The notes beneath the pieces are model-generated. The model was not told the DNA's origin, made no database searches, and was given only the letters and a program-made list of their open reading frames with translations. From a virus: DNA of 34,320 bases. Positions 17,878 to 29,934 of this stretch are shown one piece after another. Made by a program: the position numbers and the translations under genes. Position 1 is the stretch's first letter. Each line of letters begins with the position of its first letter. The DNA is taken from positions 1-34,320 of IMG/VR virus record IMGVR_UViG_3300032046_000114; one strand, written 5' to 3'.

Positions 17878-19035
17878 ATGACTAGATACATCATGAACAG
17901 CGTCGAGTTCGTTAGACGCTCCATTGAGTTGCACGGCAACAAGTACGATTACACCGAATCAGTCTACGTCGATCAACAAACGAAAGTAAAGATCTTTTGT
18001 CGAACGTGTCAGAAGCATTTCGAGCAGAAGCCACAGAAACACTACGCAAAAGGCGAAGGATGTTGGGAATGCGGCGTTGCCAAGCGGACCGCCGCTCAGA
18101 CATTTACCTTTGAGCAGTTTGTTGAAAAGGCACGAATAAAGCATGGGAAACGCTTTGACTACGATCGAACGACATACACACGAGCAAAAGACAAGCTCAC
18201 TATCCGTTGTCGAACATGCAAGGACATCTTCGAGCAACAAGGTAACTCCCATTTGCTAGGGACGGGATGCCCGCGATGTAGTGTCAAGATCGCTCACATC
18301 AAACAGAGTTACGGCGGCGAAGGCTTCATCGTGCGAGCGAGGCAAATACATGGTGACAAGTTCGATTACCTCGGATGCTCAGATCCACATTGGAGACAGA
18401 AGAGCATAGTCACGTGGAGGTGTCGCGATTGCAGTCTGATGCATGATCAGCTTGTGCTCAATCACTTAGCAGGGCAAGGGTGTGCGAGATGTTCAGGCAA
18501 AGAACATCATCACACTCTTGAAAGCTTTGTTGAAAAGAGCAAAAGAATTCACGGTAACGATCGTTACGATTACTCAAATGTTGAGTATGTTGACAGTAAA
18601 ACACACGTTTGGGTGACATGCATTCCATGTCAATTGACATGGCAAGTCAGACCGTACAACCACATGAACGGCAAGGAATGCCCTCGCTGCGTCGCCAAAC
18701 GGTTTGTCTCTAAGGGAGAAACAGTTTGGCTCGACAGTCTCAACATCGATCTGAAAGACCGCAACGTGTGGGTCAAAGCGAACGGCCGAAAGTTCAACGT
18801 CGACGCTCTCGTTGGCACCACCGTCTATGAGTTCAACGGCGACTACTACCACGGCAACCCTGCGAAGTTCGCGCCAGAAAAAGTCAACCACAAATGTGGG
18901 CTCACCATGAAGGAACTTTACGACAAGACGTTAGAAAAGCACGCTTGTTTAGAAGCGGCAGGTTACACGGTCGTGTCGATGTGGGAGAGCGAATGGACGA
19001 AGCTCATGAAGGCTCGAACAAGAGCTCATCGCTAG
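17878..19035 (+). CDS. Zinc-ribbon-repeat homing-type endonuclease (Vsr-like)
   Basis: 385 residues. Four repeats of about 55 residues at 11-66, 81-135, 150-206 and 217-271, each F..[RK]A...HG.[KR][YF]DY, then CxxC, then a second CxxC ending GCPRC or similar: DUF723-type treble-clef zinc ribbons. The C-terminal domain (278-385) has VDALVGTTVYEFNGDYYHG with Asp309, Glu318 and His325, and later a KTLEKHACLEAAGYTVVSMW block, which resembles Vsr/EDxHD nucleases. Such genes in phages are freestanding homing endonucleases. It is antisense to all neighbours; its 3' end overlaps the preceding minus-strand gene by 32 nt. No ribosome site is visible; ATG 17893 is an alternative. Confidence 0.82.
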   Translation: MTRYIMNSVEFVRRSIELHGNKYDYTESVYVDQQTKVKIFCRTCQKHFEQKPQKHYAKGEGCWECGVAKRTAAQTFTFEQFVEKARIKHGKRFDYDRTTYTRAKDKLTIRCRTCKDIFEQQGNSHLLGTGCPRCSVKIAHIKQSYGGEGFIVRARQIHGDKFDYLGCSDPHWRQKSIVTWRCRDCSLMHDQLVLNHLAGQGCARCSGKEHHHTLESFVEKSKRIHGNDRYDYSNVEYVDSKTHVWVTCIPCQLTWQVRPYNHMNGKECPRCVAKRFVSKGETVWLDSLNIDLKDRNVWVKANGRKFNVDALVGTTVYEFNGDYYHGNPAKFAPEKVNHKCGLTMKELYDKTLEKHACLEAAGYTVVSMWESEWTKLMKARTRAHR

Positions 19036-19198
19036 AGTCCATCCCGAATGCGGCGTCGCCTAAGTGGTGGATGTTTCCTGTCTCAAGATCCATCGCGTGC
19101 CACCAAGGCATGCTTGCAGCGAAGTTGGTTGGCACGGACGCGTCACGGATCACAAGGATGATCGTGTTGCTCATCACCCAAACCTGACCCACGCTCAC
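19004..19198 (-). CDS. GSVW-family small protein (dispersed member 8)
   Basis: 64 residues from a GTG at 19198 that overlaps the release-factor TGA as GTGA; GGAGGAAAGG upstream supports it. An ATG at 19216 would overlap further. Sequence SVGQVWVMSNTIILVIRDAS, then WWHAMDLETGNIHHLGDAAF. The family elements G-x-V-W, the hydrophobic strand ending RD and the LxxG block are present; the PYxAP lead is missing. The last 32 nt overlap the endonuclease gene on the other strand. Confidence 0.72.
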   Translation of the reverse strand: MSVGQVWVMSNTIILVIRDASVPTNFAASMPWWHAMDLETGNIHHLGDAAFGMDSSDELLFEPS

Positions 19199-19864
19199 CA
19201 CTCGCCTTTCCTCCACTTCCTGAGGCTAGACTTCTTGCCTGACCTGCGATCGATGATCTGGTCGTCTTGCTCTCTGTACGTTCTCACCGCGTCTCCACGT
19301 TGCCCTGAACCCACCTGATCGTGTCTCAGACGGTCACGATCTGACTTCACGCCCTCGACCGCAGCCTCGTGCAAACGTGCGGCCAAGATCTGGTACGCTG
19401 TCGCCTTGTTCTGGTGCTGCGAGCGTTCGTTGTCGATGCGCACGCTGAGGCCTGACGGCCTGTGTGTGGCGATGACACAGCTCTCCGTCTTGTTGCGCTT
19501 CTGCCCCCCAGGGCCAGAACCTCTAGCCGTCACGATCTCCACGTCTGACGTGTTGAATTGCGTGTTGACTGAGGTGTTAAGGTCAAGCACGGCGACGGTG
19601 ATCGTCGACGAGTGAACGCGTCCACGCTTCTCAGTAGCCGGGATTCGTTGCCAGCGGTGACCACCGGCTTCGTTAGCGTAGAGGCGCTTTGCGTCCACTC
19701 CAGTCACTTGCACGCAAGCGAAGCCAGCGTACTCCTCGATCACCTCGACGTCAAAGACCGTTTCGACGCGCGGCGCACGCGTAAGCACGCAGCTGCTCGG
19801 TCACAAGGTTCTTAGCGTCGTCGCCGCCTTCTGCGGCGCGGATCTCGATGAGCACGGTCTCCAT
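19195..19864 (-). CDS. Class I release factor, RF1-type, with +1 frameshift
   Basis: Two frames make one protein of 222 residues. From the ATG at 19864 (AGGAG 8 nt upstream) 37 codons give METVLIEIRAAEGGDDAKNL and onward to NGL, then TGA. A +1 shift at CTT TGA C continues with DVEVIEEYAG. The joined protein aligns without a gap to bacterial RF1 domains 2-4: IRAxxGGD, GGHRWQRIPATEKRGRVHSS with the PxT recognition tripeptide Pro75-Ala76-Thr77 (RF1 type, reads UAA/UAG), GSGPGGQ at about 115-121 and SQHQNKA. Domain 1 is absent, as in PrfH-like factors. It lies between two GSVW-family genes. It may favour termination or rescue during infection. Confidence 0.88.
19750..19756 (-). other. prfB-type +1 frameshift site (CTT TGA C)
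   Basis: The seven bases CTTTGAC match the E. coli prfB shift site. The tRNA-Leu on CTT slips to TTT, skipping one base, and GAC is read next. The SD-like AGGGGG that stimulates prfB shifting is absent here; only ACGGT precedes the site. Both flanking frames encode release-factor sequence that joins exactly here. Confidence 0.85.
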
Positions 19865-22626: not shown

Positions 22627-25600
22627 TCAGATCTGCGCGCCGGCGTTGGTCACGACGAAGTCAAGTGCAACGTATTCGATCGCGTGAGTGGGTTGGACCC
22701 AGATCTTGCCACGAATCGTGTTGTTCTCAACGTCAGCCTGGGTGGTTGTGCCTGTGTCGATCTGAACCTTGTAGCGTTCAACGCCGAACTGCTTCTGGAT
22801 GCGTGAAAGCCGAGGCTCAACGGTTGCTTGGAAGCGTGCAAGCGTGCTCTCACGGTTCGGCTCAAAGACGAACGTGAGCGCGATGTCTCGCACCTGGCGA
22901 CGCAGATCGATCATGAGGCGACGAACGTTGACTCGATCCAGCGAGCTGGCGAACGCTTGCAGCGTGCGCTGACCCCACACAACCACTCCGCCTTGCGCTT
23001 GCGTGCCAGCCGGTGTGTTCCCTGGGAACGCGACGAGCGGGTTGATGTTCGCGTCGTAGAGCGTGTCCATGTTGTCCTTAGACAGTTTGACCTTCGTCTC
23101 GAGCGTGCTAGCAAGCGCGCCACGATCGAAGCCGGCGGGCGCGAACCAGGGGTACGCCTTCGCGTCGTTCAACGCGAACGCACCGAGGACGACGACGCTG
23201 GAGGGGACCATCACATTGCTCTTTGTGGTGGGATCCGTGACGACGACGTCAGGGTAATACGCGGCGCCGAACGAGTTGTTGAGCGCGCGTGTCTTGAACT
23301 GCGTCGTCGTGTTGATGACGCTGGGGACCTGGATGCTTCCCGTGATGAGCGAGCCGTTCGTGTCGTACTCCTCGATGTCCATGATGTACATGGCGTCGAA
23401 GCGACGTTCAACAGACTCGATGGCCTTGTCGGTGACGATAGCATGCCTGATGCCGGGGATGGCGAGCAGCTGGATGTCAACGTCGGTGCGCTCAGACATG
23501 ATGTCGATCGCCTTGCGGTAAGCTGCGGCCGACGCGCCTGCAGACTGGCCGCGTGTGGAGTCAGCCATGTCGGCCGTGACAGCCACGTTGGAGATGGCGG
23601 CCTCCTCGCGATCGAACATGTTTGTGCCGTCGAATCCGCCTTGCGTGAGCATGGTGAACTTGAGGTACTTGCGGTTTGGCTGCGTGAAGTCACCGATCGC
23701 GAGGGCTCGCGTCTTGTCAGCAGCGTTCGCTGCGATGTTGCCGTCACGCACGTAGACAGCGGTCGACCATTTTTGAGGATCTGCCTTCGCATCCGAGCCG
23801 GTCATGACACGGATGTTCTCAAGTGTGAACTTGTTGTTGCAGAAGCGATCCACGTCGAGAATGCCGTTCGAAGCCGAGTCAGCGACGCCGACAGAACCCT
23901 CTTCCAAGAAGTTCAGGTTGGATGTCTGGAAGTTGGGGAAGTAGAGAGTGTAGCTCGCGAGCGAGTCGTTCTTGACGCTGGTGGCGTTGGGGTTGCTCAC
24001 GCTGATGACCTGCTCGAACTGAACGCCCCAGTAGAGCGACGAGTTGACAAGCGCTTTGACGCCTTCGCCCTCTTGCAGGCTGAGCCTGAAGGGGACCGGG
24101 GGCTGGACGACGCGCTTGAGCGCGTCTGCCACGATCAGATCCGATTGCCCACCGATCGAGGTGATCGCGGCGAGAGGGGCAGAGCCGGACGTCACCAGGT
24201 GAGCGATGCCACGGAAGCCAATGGGGAGAGCAGTGGAGTCCACCTCACCGTTGACGACGAGATCATCGAGCTCAACGCGAACGTAGTTGGACGCGTTCGG
24301 GTAGTTGCCGTCAACGACGAGCTTCTGGGACTGGGTCGTCTTGTCGAAGTCGTAGAAGACGTTCATGTCGCCGATCGACTTGGCGATGTAGCGATCCGCC
24401 GAAGGGTTCAGGGACAGGCCGCGGTACTGCTCGAGCGTGCGAGGGTTCACGTCTGTGTCGTTCCACTCACGCACAACAACGTCGAACGTGCCGTATGGGT
24501 TCTGACTGTCAGACGAAGGCGCGATGTTCTCGATGGAGATCTTGACCTTGTTCGAGTTTCCGGCGCCGTCGTCTATCATGTGGAAGCGGAAGAGCGCCTT
24601 CGGCGTGCCACCAAATCGCTGCGAGAGAACCCAAGGAGACTTGGCGTGAGAGAAACGATCCTCCCAGTTCTCGTAGTTCGGAGTAGAAGCGCTGCCGACA
24701 TCACGGCCAAGACTGCCTGTGAGGATGAACGCCGCGGACTCAAGCCCGGCGGTGTTGCCAGCCGAGGAAGCGCTGCTGATGAGGCCAGATCCAGTCACGA
24801 CTGCGAGCGCGGGATGGATGTCCCAGTACGCGTAGAGGTAGTGACCAGCCTGCTGCAGCTTGTACGGATCGCTGTTGAGGACGTTCTTGAAGTAGTTTGG
24901 AGCCGTCGAGTCGAAGCTCGCGGTGTACACGTTGGGGTACGCTGCGTCAGTGCCCTTGTGACCGTTGAGCAGCAGAACGAACTCCTGCTTGCCGGAGGCG
25001 AGGACAACCGTGCCAACAGGCGAGCCACTAGAGCCAACGTCGGTCGCGACGAGGGTGGACGCGGGAGCTGCCGAGGCTGTGAAGGACGACGACAGCTTGA
25101 CGATGACACCCGAGGGAGCCATCAAGACGCCGCGGAGCATGGGAACTGCCGTGGAGGCGCCTGGCGTGACAGAGCCAACACCTTGCAGGCTGGCGGAGCT
25201 GAAGATGGACGAGCCAAGCGACTCGCTCATGAAGCAGCCGATCATGTACACGCGTCCAAGCGATCCGCCGGAGTTAGCGTAAGGGTTGGAGGTTAGGATG
25301 CCACTGTCGACGTTTGGCAGCTGCTCGCCGGCGACGAAGCCTGCGTTGAGCACACGGCCAGCGTTCGTTCCGGTCTCACGCTTGAGGCCTTGACCCACGC
25401 CGAGGACTCGAAGGTATGTGACAGCCTGCGCGCTACGCAGCCACTCAGTGACAGCAAGCGGGCCAAACTTCTGCCCATCGGTCTTGCCGAACTTGGCGTA
25501 GTAGTCCTCGATCAGGCCAACGGTGACAGGGACGAAGGCAGGACCTTTGAGAGAAGTTCCGATTACACCACACGGCGTTCCGATTGGCTGCGCGCTCACG

Positions 25601-25662
25601 GGGCCGGAGAGGTCTATCTCTCGACTAGTAACACCAGCACTTCCAAGTTTCACGTTCGCCAT
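22627..25662 (-). CDS. Tail sheath protein B
   Basis: 1011 residues. The N-terminus has GPVSAQPIGTPCGVIGTSLK, GPAFVPVTV and AVTYLRVLGVG, and the C-terminus YPWFAPAGFDRGAL, RVNVRRLMIDLRRQ and FVVTNAGA, all tail-sheath signatures (T4 gp18 class, but about 350 residues longer). It forms the contractile outer tail. It shares motifs along its whole length with sheath A. No Shine-Dalgarno lies before the ATG; that leader is shared with a divergent endonuclease gene, whose insertion may have replaced the original one. Confidence 0.92.
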   Translation of the reverse strand: MANVKLGSAGVTSREIDLSGPVSAQPIGTPCGVIGTSLKGPAFVPVTVGLIEDYYAKFGKTDGQKFGPLAVTEWLRSAQAVTYLRVLGVGQGLKRETGTNAGRVLNAGFVAGEQLPNVDSGILTSNPYANSGGSLGRVYMIGCFMSESLGSSIFSSASLQGVGSVTPGASTAVPMLRGVLMAPSGVIVKLSSSFTASAAPASTLVATDVGSSGSPVGTVVLASGKQEFVLLLNGHKGTDAAYPNVYTASFDSTAPNYFKNVLNSDPYKLQQAGHYLYAYWDIHPALAVVTGSGLISSASSAGNTAGLESAAFILTGSLGRDVGSASTPNYENWEDRFSHAKSPWVLSQRFGGTPKALFRFHMIDDGAGNSNKVKISIENIAPSSDSQNPYGTFDVVVREWNDTDVNPRTLEQYRGLSLNPSADRYIAKSIGDMNVFYDFDKTTQSQKLVVDGNYPNASNYVRVELDDLVVNGEVDSTALPIGFRGIAHLVTSGSAPLAAITSIGGQSDLIVADALKRVVQPPVPFRLSLQEGEGVKALVNSSLYWGVQFEQVISVSNPNATSVKNDSLASYTLYFPNFQTSNLNFLEEGSVGVADSASNGILDVDRFCNNKFTLENIRVMTGSDAKADPQKWSTAVYVRDGNIAANAADKTRALAIGDFTQPNRKYLKFTMLTQGGFDGTNMFDREEAAISNVAVTADMADSTRGQSAGASAAAYRKAIDIMSERTDVDIQLLAIPGIRHAIVTDKAIESVERRFDAMYIMDIEEYDTNGSLITGSIQVPSVINTTTQFKTRALNNSFGAAYYPDVVVTDPTTKSNVMVPSSVVVLGAFALNDAKAYPWFAPAGFDRGALASTLETKVKLSKDNMDTLYDANINPLVAFPGNTPAGTQAQGGVVVWGQRTLQAFASSLDRVNVRRLMIDLRRQVRDIALTFVFEPNRESTLARFQATVEPRLSRIQKQFGVERYKVQIDTGTTTQADVENNTIRGKIWVQPTHAIEYVALDFVVTNAGAQI

Positions 25663-25739: not shown

Positions 25740-26945
25740 ATGGGACGCTCCGGGCCGCCACGGTTAGATCAAGATGTTGTTATCTCTCGTATGAGATCAA
25801 TACACGGCGACACGTATGACTACTCGAAGTTCGTCTACACAACTTTGCGAACCAAAGGTGAGATCATCTGCCGCGAACACGGGAGCTTCTTCCAGAACTA
25901 CGGCAATCACTTCTTCAATCGTTCTGGGTGTCCAACGTGTGTTCATCGTCGACTGACACTTCAACAGATCGAAGCACAACGAGCTCCATCAAATAAGCTC
26001 GCCTTAGACACCGTCGTCGACAGAATGCGTCAAGCTCACTCGACGCCTTTCGACTACACCGCTTTCGAGTACGTTGAGATGAAGACGCCGGGGAAAATCT
26101 CATGTCCAACACATGGACCATTCTGGATGTCACCTAACGATCACGTCAGAAGTAAGACAGGCTGCCCGGAATGCACGAACGAACACCTTCGCGCGCAGCG
26201 TGCTTGGTCGTTGGACGAGGTTGTGACTCGTTCGCGAGCAATTCACGGCGACACGTACGAGTATCCTCCGCAGGTCTACGTCAACTCCTCGACGCCGTTC
26301 ACAATCGTCTGTCGCAAGCACGGCGCCTTCCAACAGTGTTACGACAGTCACGTTCATCAGACAGCCGGATGCCCACAATGCTTTGGCTCGTTCAAACGTA
26401 CGCCCGATGAGTTCCTTGATGCAGCTAAGACTGTTCACGGCGAACGTTACGACTACTCAGAAGTCAAATATGTGAACAACTCGACTCCCGTAAAGATCGT
26501 CTGCTCTGCCCATGGATCCTTCTGGCAAAAGCCAATGAAACATATCAACGTCGAGCAAGGATGCCCTCGTTGCGCCGACAACGTATCGAAAGCCGAACGG
26601 AAATGGCTTGCTGCCGTCGGCGTGCCGGACGACCCTGATCATCGTCAAGTGCGCATCGTCGGCAGTCGAATGAGAGCCGACGGCATGATCAACCACACGG
26701 TCTACGAGTTCTTCGGCACCTACTGGCACGGTGATCCACGAACGTACGCACCCGACGCTCTCAACACAAGGAACGGCCACCGCATGGGCAGTCTTTACCT
26801 CGAAGCGCTCGAGAAGCAACGACGCATCATCGAGCTCGGCTACGAACTCAAGTACGTGTGGGAGCTAGACTACCGTGCGGGTCAACTCTTTTCAGAGAAG
26901 AACCCGCACGGGTGGCTCACACGAATTCCACGCCGGCGTTCGTGA
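25740..26945 (+). CDS. Zinc-ribbon-repeat homing-type endonuclease, second copy
   Basis: 401 residues from the ATG at 25740; a TTG at 25665 would add 25 residues but reads into the sheath leader. Four zinc-ribbon repeats start with HGDTYDYSKF.Y, HSTPFDYTAF.Y, HGDTYEYPPQ.Y and HGERYDYSEV.Y, each with CxxHG and GCPxC pairs. The C-terminal domain has a MINHTVYEFFGTYWHGDP block and ELGYELKYVWELDY, matching the Vsr-like domain of the first endonuclease. Here a His-rich CxxH replaces one CxxC of each ribbon. The 3' end overlaps the end of sheath A by 29 nt on the opposite strand. Sequence drift shows it is not a recent copy of the first. Confidence 0.82.
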   Translation: MGRSGPPRLDQDVVISRMRSIHGDTYDYSKFVYTTLRTKGEIICREHGSFFQNYGNHFFNRSGCPTCVHRRLTLQQIEAQRAPSNKLALDTVVDRMRQAHSTPFDYTAFEYVEMKTPGKISCPTHGPFWMSPNDHVRSKTGCPECTNEHLRAQRAWSLDEVVTRSRAIHGDTYEYPPQVYVNSSTPFTIVCRKHGAFQQCYDSHVHQTAGCPQCFGSFKRTPDEFLDAAKTVHGERYDYSEVKYVNNSTPVKIVCSAHGSFWQKPMKHINVEQGCPRCADNVSKAERKWLAAVGVPDDPDHRQVRIVGSRMRADGMINHTVYEFFGTYWHGDPRTYAPDALNTRNGHRMGSLYLEALEKQRRIIELGYELKYVWELDYRAGQLFSEKNPHGWLTRIPRRRS

Positions 26946-29934
26946 TGATGAAGTCGATCTTGATGAACTCAATCGTCCTTGTGGGCACGATCGTGATGCG
27001 TCCGTTGAGTTTGTTCTCGTCGCGGTCGCGGTCGGTGTTGTTGGTGTCGTCCATGACGACGCTGAAAGACTCCACACCGGCTTGCGTCTGAATGAGGCCG
27101 AGGCGTATGGACGCGTCGCGAACGAACTGATCCCTGACGGTGGGCGTGTTCTGCTCGAAAGGCAGTTTGAGAGCGATGCCAGTGACCACACGCTTGACTT
27201 CAAGCAGAAGGCGACGCACGTTGACACGATCGAGCGCGCTCTTGGAAGCTTTGCACGTCTTCTGCCCGAAGATGACGAAACCCTGCTTGGGGAACGTTGC
27301 GATCGGGTTGATGCGCACGTCGTAGAGCGCGTCGCGGTCAGCAGCGTTGAGCCTCACTGCGATGTTCTTGACGAAGTCAAGCGCGGCACGGTTGAAGCCG
27401 GCAGGCGCGAACCAGGGGTACGCGATCCGATCGTTGTAGGCAAGCGCTGCGAGAGAGGCCACTGAAGCTGGCACCTTGACGCGGCGCTTGTTGGTCGTGT
27501 CGTCGATGAAGACGTCGGGGAAGTAGACAGCCGAGTAATCGTTGTCGATCGCGCGTCCGTCGAAAGCCTTCGCCGTGTTCGTCACGTCAGGACGGCTGGT
27601 TGAATCGTCGTAAAGCCGTGTGTTCGTGTCGTCGTACGTCGCGATGTCCATGAGGTAAACAGCCATGCCGTACTCGCGCGTCTTCTGCGCCGCGTAGTTG
27701 GTCAGGTACGACTCACGGATGCCTGGGATCGCCAGGATGTTCGTGTTGATGTAGAACTGGTTCGTCATGATGTCGACGGCCGTCTTGTAGGCCACAACGC
27801 CGTTGTTGCGCGTCGCGGTGCCTGCTTGATTCTGTGCGAGTCCTGGCGAGACGTAGGAGCTTTCTGCGCCACCGCCAGCATCGAACGACACAGCCTTGTC
27901 CTGCATGCGTCGAGCCGACTTGTCAAGCATGTTCACGCCGTCGAATCCGCCGTAGAGGAACGTTGTGAACTTCGCGTACGGAGAGAATCGGTTGAACTGA
28001 ACGCTCGACGTCGCCGCAGCGAGAGCTGCAAACGTGAGTCGGCTAGAGATGGTGCCGTCGTTGACCGTGTACGTCGTCGGGTTGACCGTCGCGTTACGCA
28101 GGTACGAAGCCTCTTTCATGTGCGCGTCGATCGAACCCGTGAAGTCAGCAAATGCGGTGTTCGCGAAGGCAACACGTGCGAGGCTGAACTTGTTGTTGCA
28201 GAGGGCGTCGGCGTTCGTTCCAGTGACAACCGCATCAAGCTTGCGGATGCCCGCGAACTGCGTGAGGGTCGCGATGAGGCTGTTCTGATCGGTCACCGTG
28301 TTCGGGTTGAGCGGCGTGGTGTTGCGCTCGAACTTGACACCCCAGTAGAAGTTCGGGGAGGCGAGCTCAGTGGGGCCAGGGTTGCCGACGTAACCCGCGG
28401 TCGCGACCTCACCCTTCGTCACCTTGAAGCGGAACGGGATCGGAGGAATGACAGAGCCGCTGAGCATCGCTCCGATTGTGTTGCCAGAGACGTTTGCAGC
28501 GAGGCGAACGAGCGTGGCGACACCCGGGCGATCCGTTGTGCCGTCGTTGGTCTTGAGAACCTCGACGCCGCGGAACCCGAAGGGCAAAGACTTCGCCGGT
28601 GTGAGCTTGCGCTCAACCTGATCGCTCATGACGACGCGAATGAACTTGGATTGGTTGGCGTACCGACCACTGCTCAGAAGACGACGCTCGTTGAGATTCT
28701 CGCTCTCAAAGTTGAACGTGACCTTGCGATCGCCAACCTTGCGTGCGACGTAGTTCTCAGAATCTGGGTTCAGATCGCACTGCGAGAACTGCTCGAGGAT
28801 GTCGGGGGTCGAGTCCGTGTCGTTGAAAGCACGCACGAGCAACGAGAATGTGCCGTAAGGGTTGGCAGGATCACCCGAGATCTTGAGATCCGCGATAGAG
28901 ATCTTGTAGAGTCGGTTGGCGTACTCGCCATCGTCCAACGCCTGAACAGAGAAGAGATCGTACTCGGTCGCTCCAAAGGGTTGCGAGATGATCGACGGGG
29001 ACGCGGGCGCGCTGTACTTCGTGTCGAAGTGGCCGAACGTGTCGCGGAACTTCATCGAAGTGTCGCCGGATGCCGTGGATGTGTTGTTCGAACCAGAGAC
29101 GATCGCGACGGTGGTTGCCGTGGCGAGCTCGTCGTCGACCGCGTAATCGGCGTACACAAGGTGCTGTTCCGACGCGAACTTCTCAGGATCGCTGTTGAGC
29201 AACTTGGCGAAGTAATCCGAGCTGGATGGATCGAGAGATGCTGTGAAGATCTTGACGCCTGGGTTGCCATCGGTGACGCCGAAAGACGTGCCGTTCGACG
29301 AAGAAAGAACAATCTTGAACTTACCGCTGGAGACGGTTGCAACGTCGTCAGGAGTCGTGAGACCGAAAGCGCCTTGCGCGCTCTGGTTGCCGTCCAACAC
29401 CATCATGCGAGTGCCGGAGGCAAGCAGTACGACGCCCCGGACAAGGTTTGCGACCGATCCGGCGAAGGACGAGTTGTTTGTGAACATCGGCATGCCGAAC
29501 GCCTCGTTGGCACGCAAGCTGTGTTGCGCGACGAGGAGCTGGACGGCGCCCATGTGACGACCAGTCGAGTCGCCGTTAGCGAGCGAGCCAGTGACCACGA
29601 AGCCTGCGTTACGACACTGCCCAGTCGACTGAAAACGGAGGATGTCGCCGGAATTGTCGAGAGAGCCAGCGCCAAGGACGCGGAGGAACGTGAGAGCTGT
29701 GCGGTGCTTGAGGAACTCGTTCGCGGCGTAAGCCGACGGGTAACGGATGTCCAGATCGCCGAATGTCTGCTTGTAATTGTCGAAGTCACGGACCGTGACA
29801 GGCACGAACGCGGGGCCTCGGGTAGAGGCTCCAACGAGACCGGCGGGTACGCCAGCCGGGCCCAATTCTTGCCTTACTGAGAGGTCAGTCTCAGTCTCGA
29901 AGAATCCGGGAGAACGAAAGGTCTGCTCAGCCAT
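26917..29934 (-). CDS. Tail sheath protein A
   Basis: 1005 residues. N-terminus RSPGFFETETDLSVRQELGP, then GASTRGPAFVPVTV and LTFLRVLGAGS; late motifs are YPWFAPAGFNRAAL, RVNVRRLLLEVKRV and FIITNAGVE. These match sheath B block by block, but the middle parts differ. AGGAG lies about 10 nt before the ATG. It is probably the first-made sheath; the phage either mixes two sheath subunits or uses one for a special segment. Its last 29 nt overlap the second endonuclease gene. Confidence 0.92.
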   Translation of the reverse strand: MAEQTFRSPGFFETETDLSVRQELGPAGVPAGLVGASTRGPAFVPVTVRDFDNYKQTFGDLDIRYPSAYAANEFLKHRTALTFLRVLGAGSLDNSGDILRFQSTGQCRNAGFVVTGSLANGDSTGRHMGAVQLLVAQHSLRANEAFGMPMFTNNSSFAGSVANLVRGVVLLASGTRMMVLDGNQSAQGAFGLTTPDDVATVSSGKFKIVLSSSNGTSFGVTDGNPGVKIFTASLDPSSSDYFAKLLNSDPEKFASEQHLVYADYAVDDELATATTVAIVSGSNNTSTASGDTSMKFRDTFGHFDTKYSAPASPSIISQPFGATEYDLFSVQALDDGEYANRLYKISIADLKISGDPANPYGTFSLLVRAFNDTDSTPDILEQFSQCDLNPDSENYVARKVGDRKVTFNFESENLNERRLLSSGRYANQSKFIRVVMSDQVERKLTPAKSLPFGFRGVEVLKTNDGTTDRPGVATLVRLAANVSGNTIGAMLSGSVIPPIPFRFKVTKGEVATAGYVGNPGPTELASPNFYWGVKFERNTTPLNPNTVTDQNSLIATLTQFAGIRKLDAVVTGTNADALCNNKFSLARVAFANTAFADFTGSIDAHMKEASYLRNATVNPTTYTVNDGTISSRLTFAALAAATSSVQFNRFSPYAKFTTFLYGGFDGVNMLDKSARRMQDKAVSFDAGGGAESSYVSPGLAQNQAGTATRNNGVVAYKTAVDIMTNQFYINTNILAIPGIRESYLTNYAAQKTREYGMAVYLMDIATYDDTNTRLYDDSTSRPDVTNTAKAFDGRAIDNDYSAVYFPDVFIDDTTNKRRVKVPASVASLAALAYNDRIAYPWFAPAGFNRAALDFVKNIAVRLNAADRDALYDVRINPIATFPKQGFVIFGQKTCKASKSALDRVNVRRLLLEVKRVVTGIALKLPFEQNTPTVRDQFVRDASIRLGLIQTQAGVESFSVVMDDTNNTDRDRDENKLNGRITIVPTRTIEFIKIDFIITNAGVEFV

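Follow-up and report, generated by a model that had tools for sequence, protein, structure and literature searches.

The window analysed here is the whole of a 34,320-base IMG/VR record, a tailed-phage fragment which encodes a baseplate hub, a DNA polymerase and two different tail sheath proteins (22627-25662 and 26917-29934, minus strand; each roughly 1000 aa long, double the length of the main PHROG sheath profile). It also carries a split release factor gene with the following parts.

19195..19864, minus strand: the split gene, coding for an RF1-type class-I release factor without domain 1; joined product of 222 aa with PCRF and RF-1 domains, best family prfA
19751..19864, minus strand: zero frame, ATG, 37 codons and TGA; a 37-aa peptide if UGA terminated
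19750..19756, minus strand: shift site CTT TGA C, with a predicted slip of peptidyl-tRNA-Leu from CUU to UUU; same codon in 52 phage-family genes
19757..19771, minus strand: the five codons before CTT, GCG CGT CGA AAC GGT; the place of the internal Shine-Dalgarno sequence of relatives (CGGAGGGGT), lost or absent in the window
19195..19752, minus strand: +1 frame of 185 codons with PAT (recognition), GGQ (hydrolysis) and the stop TGA

The zero frame starts with the ATG at 19864-19862, which has an AGGAGA ribosome site and an in-frame TAG 27 nt upstream, and ends with the TGA at 19753-19751. The +1 frame is open from GAC at 19752 as far as the stop at 19197-19195, and the two frames meet exactly at CTT TGA C (19756-19750), just as the original prediction had claimed. 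This join is not due to chance, because the shift falls on the same codon in the three nearest database relatives (54-58% protein identity) and in a published phage of 485 kb. These three relatives are a 369 kb phage (L002), a 32-kb fragment (L003) and a 424 kb phage (L004). They and the published phage (LR745208) shift via CTT TGA, and the four proteins are 47-60% identical to that of the window. The site fulfils the criterion for a prfB-type frameshift, namely a CTT T slip codon beside a premature in-frame stop and a product in the +1 frame. The opposite strand has an endonuclease-like ORF just past the 3' end of the split gene (17878-19035, plus strand; PHROG HNH/endonuclease families).

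Residues 4-209 of the joined protein matched solved structures of RF1 (E 6e-39); the match to RF2 structures had an E-value of 3e-23 and that to PrfH one of 2e-14. The match to E. coli RF1 starts at residue 111, and the RF1 residues before about 107-111, which make up domain 1, have no counterpart. NCBIfam scores were 182-183 bits for prfA, 116 for prfB and 100 for prfH, all under the cut-off. The curated prfA equivalogs require 423 bits (TIGR00019) and 400 bits (NF001859), so at 182 and 183 bits and without domain 1 the protein is not an RF1 equivalog, but it fulfils the motif criterion of RF1 with PxT (PAT) and GGQ. The RF1-type recognition tripeptide predicted earlier is therefore present, and prfA is the best-scoring family. 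The loss of domain 1 was also predicted correctly; its comparison with PrfH-like factors did not hold. The recognition loop of PrfH has an SXY motif and lacks three residues, and the PrfH gene is paired with an RtcB-like one (PMC1586002). PrfH resembles the window factor as a class-I factor without domain 1, but the window protein has PAT in a full, ungapped loop and scores 100.5 bits against a PrfH cut-off of 166.65 bits (TIGR03072). PrfH identity was therefore rejected. No RtcB was found among the scanned ORFs of the window and none was recognised among recurrent neighbours in relatives, although RtcB was not itself the target of the search.

A DNA scan by motif alone returned mostly unrelated matches. 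Wider scans with three alignments gave 167 distinct genes, one of them a bacterial RF2, which left 166 phage relatives. A premature stop at about codons 35 to 55, hereafter the gate, is present in 163 of them. It is crossed by a +1 shift in 58 and is an in-frame stop in 105, and the remaining three genes are uninterrupted. In every one of these 58, CTT immediately precedes the stop at which the shift occurs. In 52 of them the shift is at exactly the position used in the window, with TGA as the stop in 44, TAG in 7 and TAA in 1. The other six shift at a second site further on, always CTT TAG C, and one of these (L335) has an additional in-frame TGA upstream. Thus, TGA is the usual stop in the 57 one-stop shift genes, TAG occurs in 12 and TAA in only one. 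In the in-frame class, 76 of the 105 genes have TGA exactly at the Trp of the RF1 motif RRGW, and the others have TGA or TAG, sometimes two stops, elsewhere up to about codon 55. L021 and L027 still have the TGA of the frameshift position, and the same stop is in frame there because the extra base is gone.

The gene neighbourhoods were variable and there was no single partner gene. T4-type RNA ligase, peptidyl-tRNA hydrolase PTH2 and a dual-specificity phosphatase recur in the flanks of loci with in-frame TGA (L271, L082 and L325), and NADAR proteins lie close to frameshift loci.

The recognition loop varies within the family. Many frameshift relatives, for example L002, L022 and L030, have Q in place of the conserved H after the loop (RVQTS), and this replacement may affect stop-codon reading. 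L013 (LR745208.1, 485 kb) and L027 have lost the PxT loop (HRVQRT-SNGRIH and HRWMRD-RTGKVH) and kept GGQ and the gate. They are the only members with deletions in the loop, and they may be rescue factors rather than codon readers. A link between gate codon and recognition motif was not seen, as members with PPT have TGA, TAG and TAA gates.

Selection also acts on the nucleotide sequence around the gate. At the position used in the window, CTT T was found in 73 of 73 sites, bacterial loci included, whereas CTT accounts for only 71 of 442 Leu codons elsewhere in these genes. The base after the stop is C in 51 of the 73 sites and T in one, and C after UGA is a weak-termination context known from prfB (PMC5009743). 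An internal Shine-Dalgarno sequence, mostly CGGAGGGGT, precedes CTT in 48 of the 52 shift-position genes, with a mean predicted pairing energy of -9.5 kcal/mol compared with -5.3 kcal/mol for synonymous codons. CGG AGG dominates this stretch, although the rest of the genes shows no preference for these two Arg codons; we infer that the RRG of the ancestral RF1 motif eased the evolution of the Shine-Dalgarno sequence. The window is one of the four exceptions among the 52 (duplex -2.6 kcal/mol, synonymous null -3.8). The absence of a Shine-Dalgarno-like stimulator noted earlier is thus correct for the window and incorrect as a general trait. Lack of the stimulator might make shifting inefficient in the window phage.

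Downstream of the gate, dN/dS was 0.04-0.14 in seven pairs of relatives. In one pair the proteins are 84% identical after the gate, and the gate is TGA in one gene and TAG in the other. Together with the comparative data, these values support the earlier claim that an RF1-type phage factor lies behind an RF2-type UGA shift. The split conserved gene is, with hardly any doubt, a real, conserved and functional feature.

The gate is not confined to phage records from metagenomes. Among 84,980 scanned genomes of bacteria and archaea, the CTT TGA gene occurs in the complete chromosome of Minicystis rosea, in several Nannocystis strains and in Novimethylophilus kurashikiensis, and a CTT TAG version occurs in MAGs. 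The bacterial genomes with a gated gene that were checked also have other, full-length proteins with the RF-1 domain. Gates are carried by cultured Nannocystis and Minicystis and by curated phages of 485-735 kb; published huge phages of 735, 642, 636 and 634 kb have an in-frame TGA gate, and one of 595 kb is uninterrupted. In Nannocystis pusilla Na p29 (L414), the gene has two bases fewer than in other Nannocystis strains, one of them within the CTTT run, which is probably an assembly error. Four matches in the phage collection are annotated prfA or prfB and are of the bacterial type. One metagenomic record labelled as a phage, MT835821.1 (L433), has a full-length bacterial RF1 (prfA) with domain 1 and no gate; it is likely to be bacterial contamination, and the same may hold for further metagenomic records labelled 'phage'.

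A sequencing error or a decaying gene could be suspected in the window alone, which is a single metagenomic fragment without an internal Shine-Dalgarno sequence. However, dozens of independent assemblies share the site, as do the complete M. rosea chromosome and several Nannocystis strains, gates are present in published huge phages, and the relatives are under strong purifying selection. Error or decay is scarcely credible for the window, and for the family as a whole it is already refuted by the conservation and the low downstream dN/dS.

If TGA were a sense codon for Trp in these phages, an in-frame TGA would be nothing special. The 76 genes with TGA at a Trp position would fit, and phages with code 4 are known to encode RF1 together with a UGA-suppressor tRNA (PMC10746230). 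The 152 other Trp codons counted in these 76 genes are, however, TGG, and recoding would leave the +1 shifts unexplained. The test of the code covered the window, the whole or almost the whole of seven fetched phage records, and 50-kb stretches from four published huge phages. TGA ends 14-59% of the ORFs of at least 100 aa in the fetched records, whose coding densities are 0.81-0.92 under code 11, and a tRNA with the UCA anticodon is absent from them. In four of the records TGA ends 55 of 141, 37 of 122, 101 of 314 and 234 of 398 such ORFs, with coding densities of 0.86-0.92 and no UCA tRNA, although not all fragmentary records were covered. Extending ORFs past TGA gave no longer stretches than extending them past TAA or TAG, both in the seven records and in the window. 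The 50-kb stretches conform to the standard code in stop usage and coding density. Recoding of TGA or TAG was therefore rejected for the seven records and the four stretches, and as an explanation of the gates it is very improbable.

TGA ends 14 of 19 ORFs of at least 120 aa in the window and 198 of 346 in a frameshift-type record (G014); in several phages with in-frame gates UGA is not the main stop. Despite the standard code, tRNAs with the CUA anticodon (amber suppressor type) occur in L072/G041, L030/G014 and L037/G020, and one with UUA in L021/G006. The tRNA-Trp(CCA) of phages G040, G041 and G014 apparently has U11-A24 in the D stem (judged without a control), as in the E. coli UGA suppressor tRNA-Trp. 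Such a tRNA could favour insertion of Trp at an in-frame TGA.

In a tree of 121 proteins, made with a quick method without bootstrap and with many weak inner branches, the family is a single clade apart from bacterial RF1 (SH-aLRT 100). Explaining the tree takes no fewer than 13 switches between gate classes, and 11 switches of stop codon inside the shift class. The shift at the window's position is present in all main branches, with the in-frame classes and the second shift site nested within, and it is probably ancestral. Only a few lineages have no stop gate (L355, L353, L356 and one bacterial MAG, L397-L399). The way in which the stop is crossed varies and a stop is nearly always kept; from this pattern we infer that the stop itself is the selected feature.

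The gate resembles the +1 frameshift of prfB, which encodes RF2, in the CTT TGA C slip site, in the C after the stop and in a full factor only after the shift. The internal Shine-Dalgarno sequence 3 nt upstream of CTT is shared with most relatives, but not with the window. The products differ, since the window factor is RF1-type (PAT, no domain 1) and not RF2 (SPF). The prfB site is at codon 26 in domain 1, whereas that of the window is at codon 37 and lies in domain 2, at the RRGW of RF1. This different place in the protein indicates a separate origin, and inheritance of the prfB site was rejected. In prfB, frameshifting uses TGA or rarely TAA and never TAG (0 of 8,164 motifs with TAG; PMC12421855), while TAG gates occur in the phage family. 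RF1, encoded by prfA, shares PxT, GGQ, domains 2-4 and the best sequence match with the window factor, but it has domain 1 and no stop gate; no conserved frameshift emerged when prfA was surveyed across bacteria (PMC12421855). In Mimivirus and Megavirus, a class-I release factor gene has UGA readthrough followed by a frameshift at UAG or UAA (PMC3521657). It is likewise a virus release factor behind stops, and L335, with its in-frame TGA and then CTT TAG shift, has the same order. The giant-virus protein is nevertheless of the eukaryotic/archaeal eRF1 type, from an unrelated family and with unrelated hosts, and it is described in two viruses, as against 163 gated genes in the phage family. Huge phages have been reported with RF1 and RF2, in a paper without mention of frameshifting (PMC7162821). 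We found no report of gated phage release factors in the literature searched, with subscription journals and preprints largely outside its scope. Standard gene callers would split or truncate such genes, and the pattern may have been missed for this reason.

How the gate might work is inferred, as no translation product was measured; this applies to shifting efficiency, RF2 sensing, codon specificity and the benefit to the phage. After 37 codons, ribosomes would arrive at CUU UGA C. With ample RF2 they would terminate at UGA and release a useless peptide. If termination at UGA is slow, the P-site tRNA-Leu would slip one base forward and the functional factor would be made. By the logic of prfB, a premature stop that is crossed when termination is slow would be a sensor of the cognate release factor, which for UGA is RF2. 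Since the shift would occur only then, output of the factor would report slow termination at UGA, that is, low free RF2. We consider it likely that the RF1-type factor is made only by ribosomes failing to terminate at the premature UGA and that its output reports low free RF2. The PxT motif predicts that the product reads UAA and UAG, so the UGA loop would be a cross-factor one. When RF2 is scarce, a larger amount of phage factor would handle termination at UAA (and UAG), and RF2 would be spared for the UGA stops that the window phage and some relatives favour. Exactly one release factor gene, and no second factor or phage RF2, was found in each of 50 phage records, which leaves no phage RF2 in such a circuit.

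A sensor is also suggested by the stops themselves. TAA, the stop read by both factors, is nearly absent among gates, and the reading as RF2 sensing gains weight from the same UGA gate being kept where in-frame readthrough replaces the shift. It is limited by the minority of genes with UAG, which in those lineages would be a direct, self-limiting RF1-type loop. For the majority, direct autoregulation by the product is not predicted, because the usual gate is UGA and not UAG and a PxT factor should not read UGA. If a factor without domain 1 also read UGA despite PxT, a prfB-like loop on the factor itself would be possible, and this would agree with the gate stop being mostly TGA as in prfB. The replacement of H by Q beside the recognition loop in many relatives and the untested specificity of the family leave some room for it. 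However, PAT and PPT are RF1 motifs, SPF was found in no phage relative, and the prfA score is far above that of prfB. PPT members have TGA, TAG and TAA gates alike, and L013 and L027 are gated without a PxT loop, so stop-codon reading by the product cannot be what keeps the gate in these two. We regard such self-regulation as unlikely.

The data leave another alternative, in which the premature stop does not sense anything and limits a toxic release factor to a small, constant amount. Release factors are harmful to cells when overproduced (PMC12421855), and the presence of both an in-frame TGA and a CTT TAG shift in L335 would suit a dampener. On the other hand, a weak start site would suffice for this purpose, stops have been re-invented at some ten positions by two mechanisms, and TAA is the gate in only one of the 57 one-stop shift genes. 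A dampener without sensing remains possible, but we doubt that it accounts for the pattern. The explanation that fits best, inferred with moderate confidence, is that the gate senses RF2 or RF1. On balance we favour a widespread phage RF1-type family with a termination sensor, in which the UGA majority reads host RF2, the UAG minority is the missing direct RF1 loop, and selection keeps the sensor while the crossing mechanism and its position are freely swapped.

Release factor genes with a built-in stop were previously thought to be limited to RF2 and one eRF1-like gene of two giant viruses. Our data add RF1-type genes with UGA, UAG and rarely UAA gates, in large phages up to 735 kb and in cultured Myxococcota. 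A 2016 review listed a readthrough-gated RF2 and a UAG/RF1 counterpart as unknown, citing only the giant-virus gene (PMC5009743). The family provides natural examples of two things that the literature calls not found, readthrough-gated bacterial-type release factors and UAG-gated RF1 (PMC5009743, PMC12421855). Many phages and a few soil bacteria thus have a protein whose synthesis would require ribosomes that do not terminate properly. It becomes testable why phages carry release factors, which may be to adjust termination when infection strains the factors of the host.
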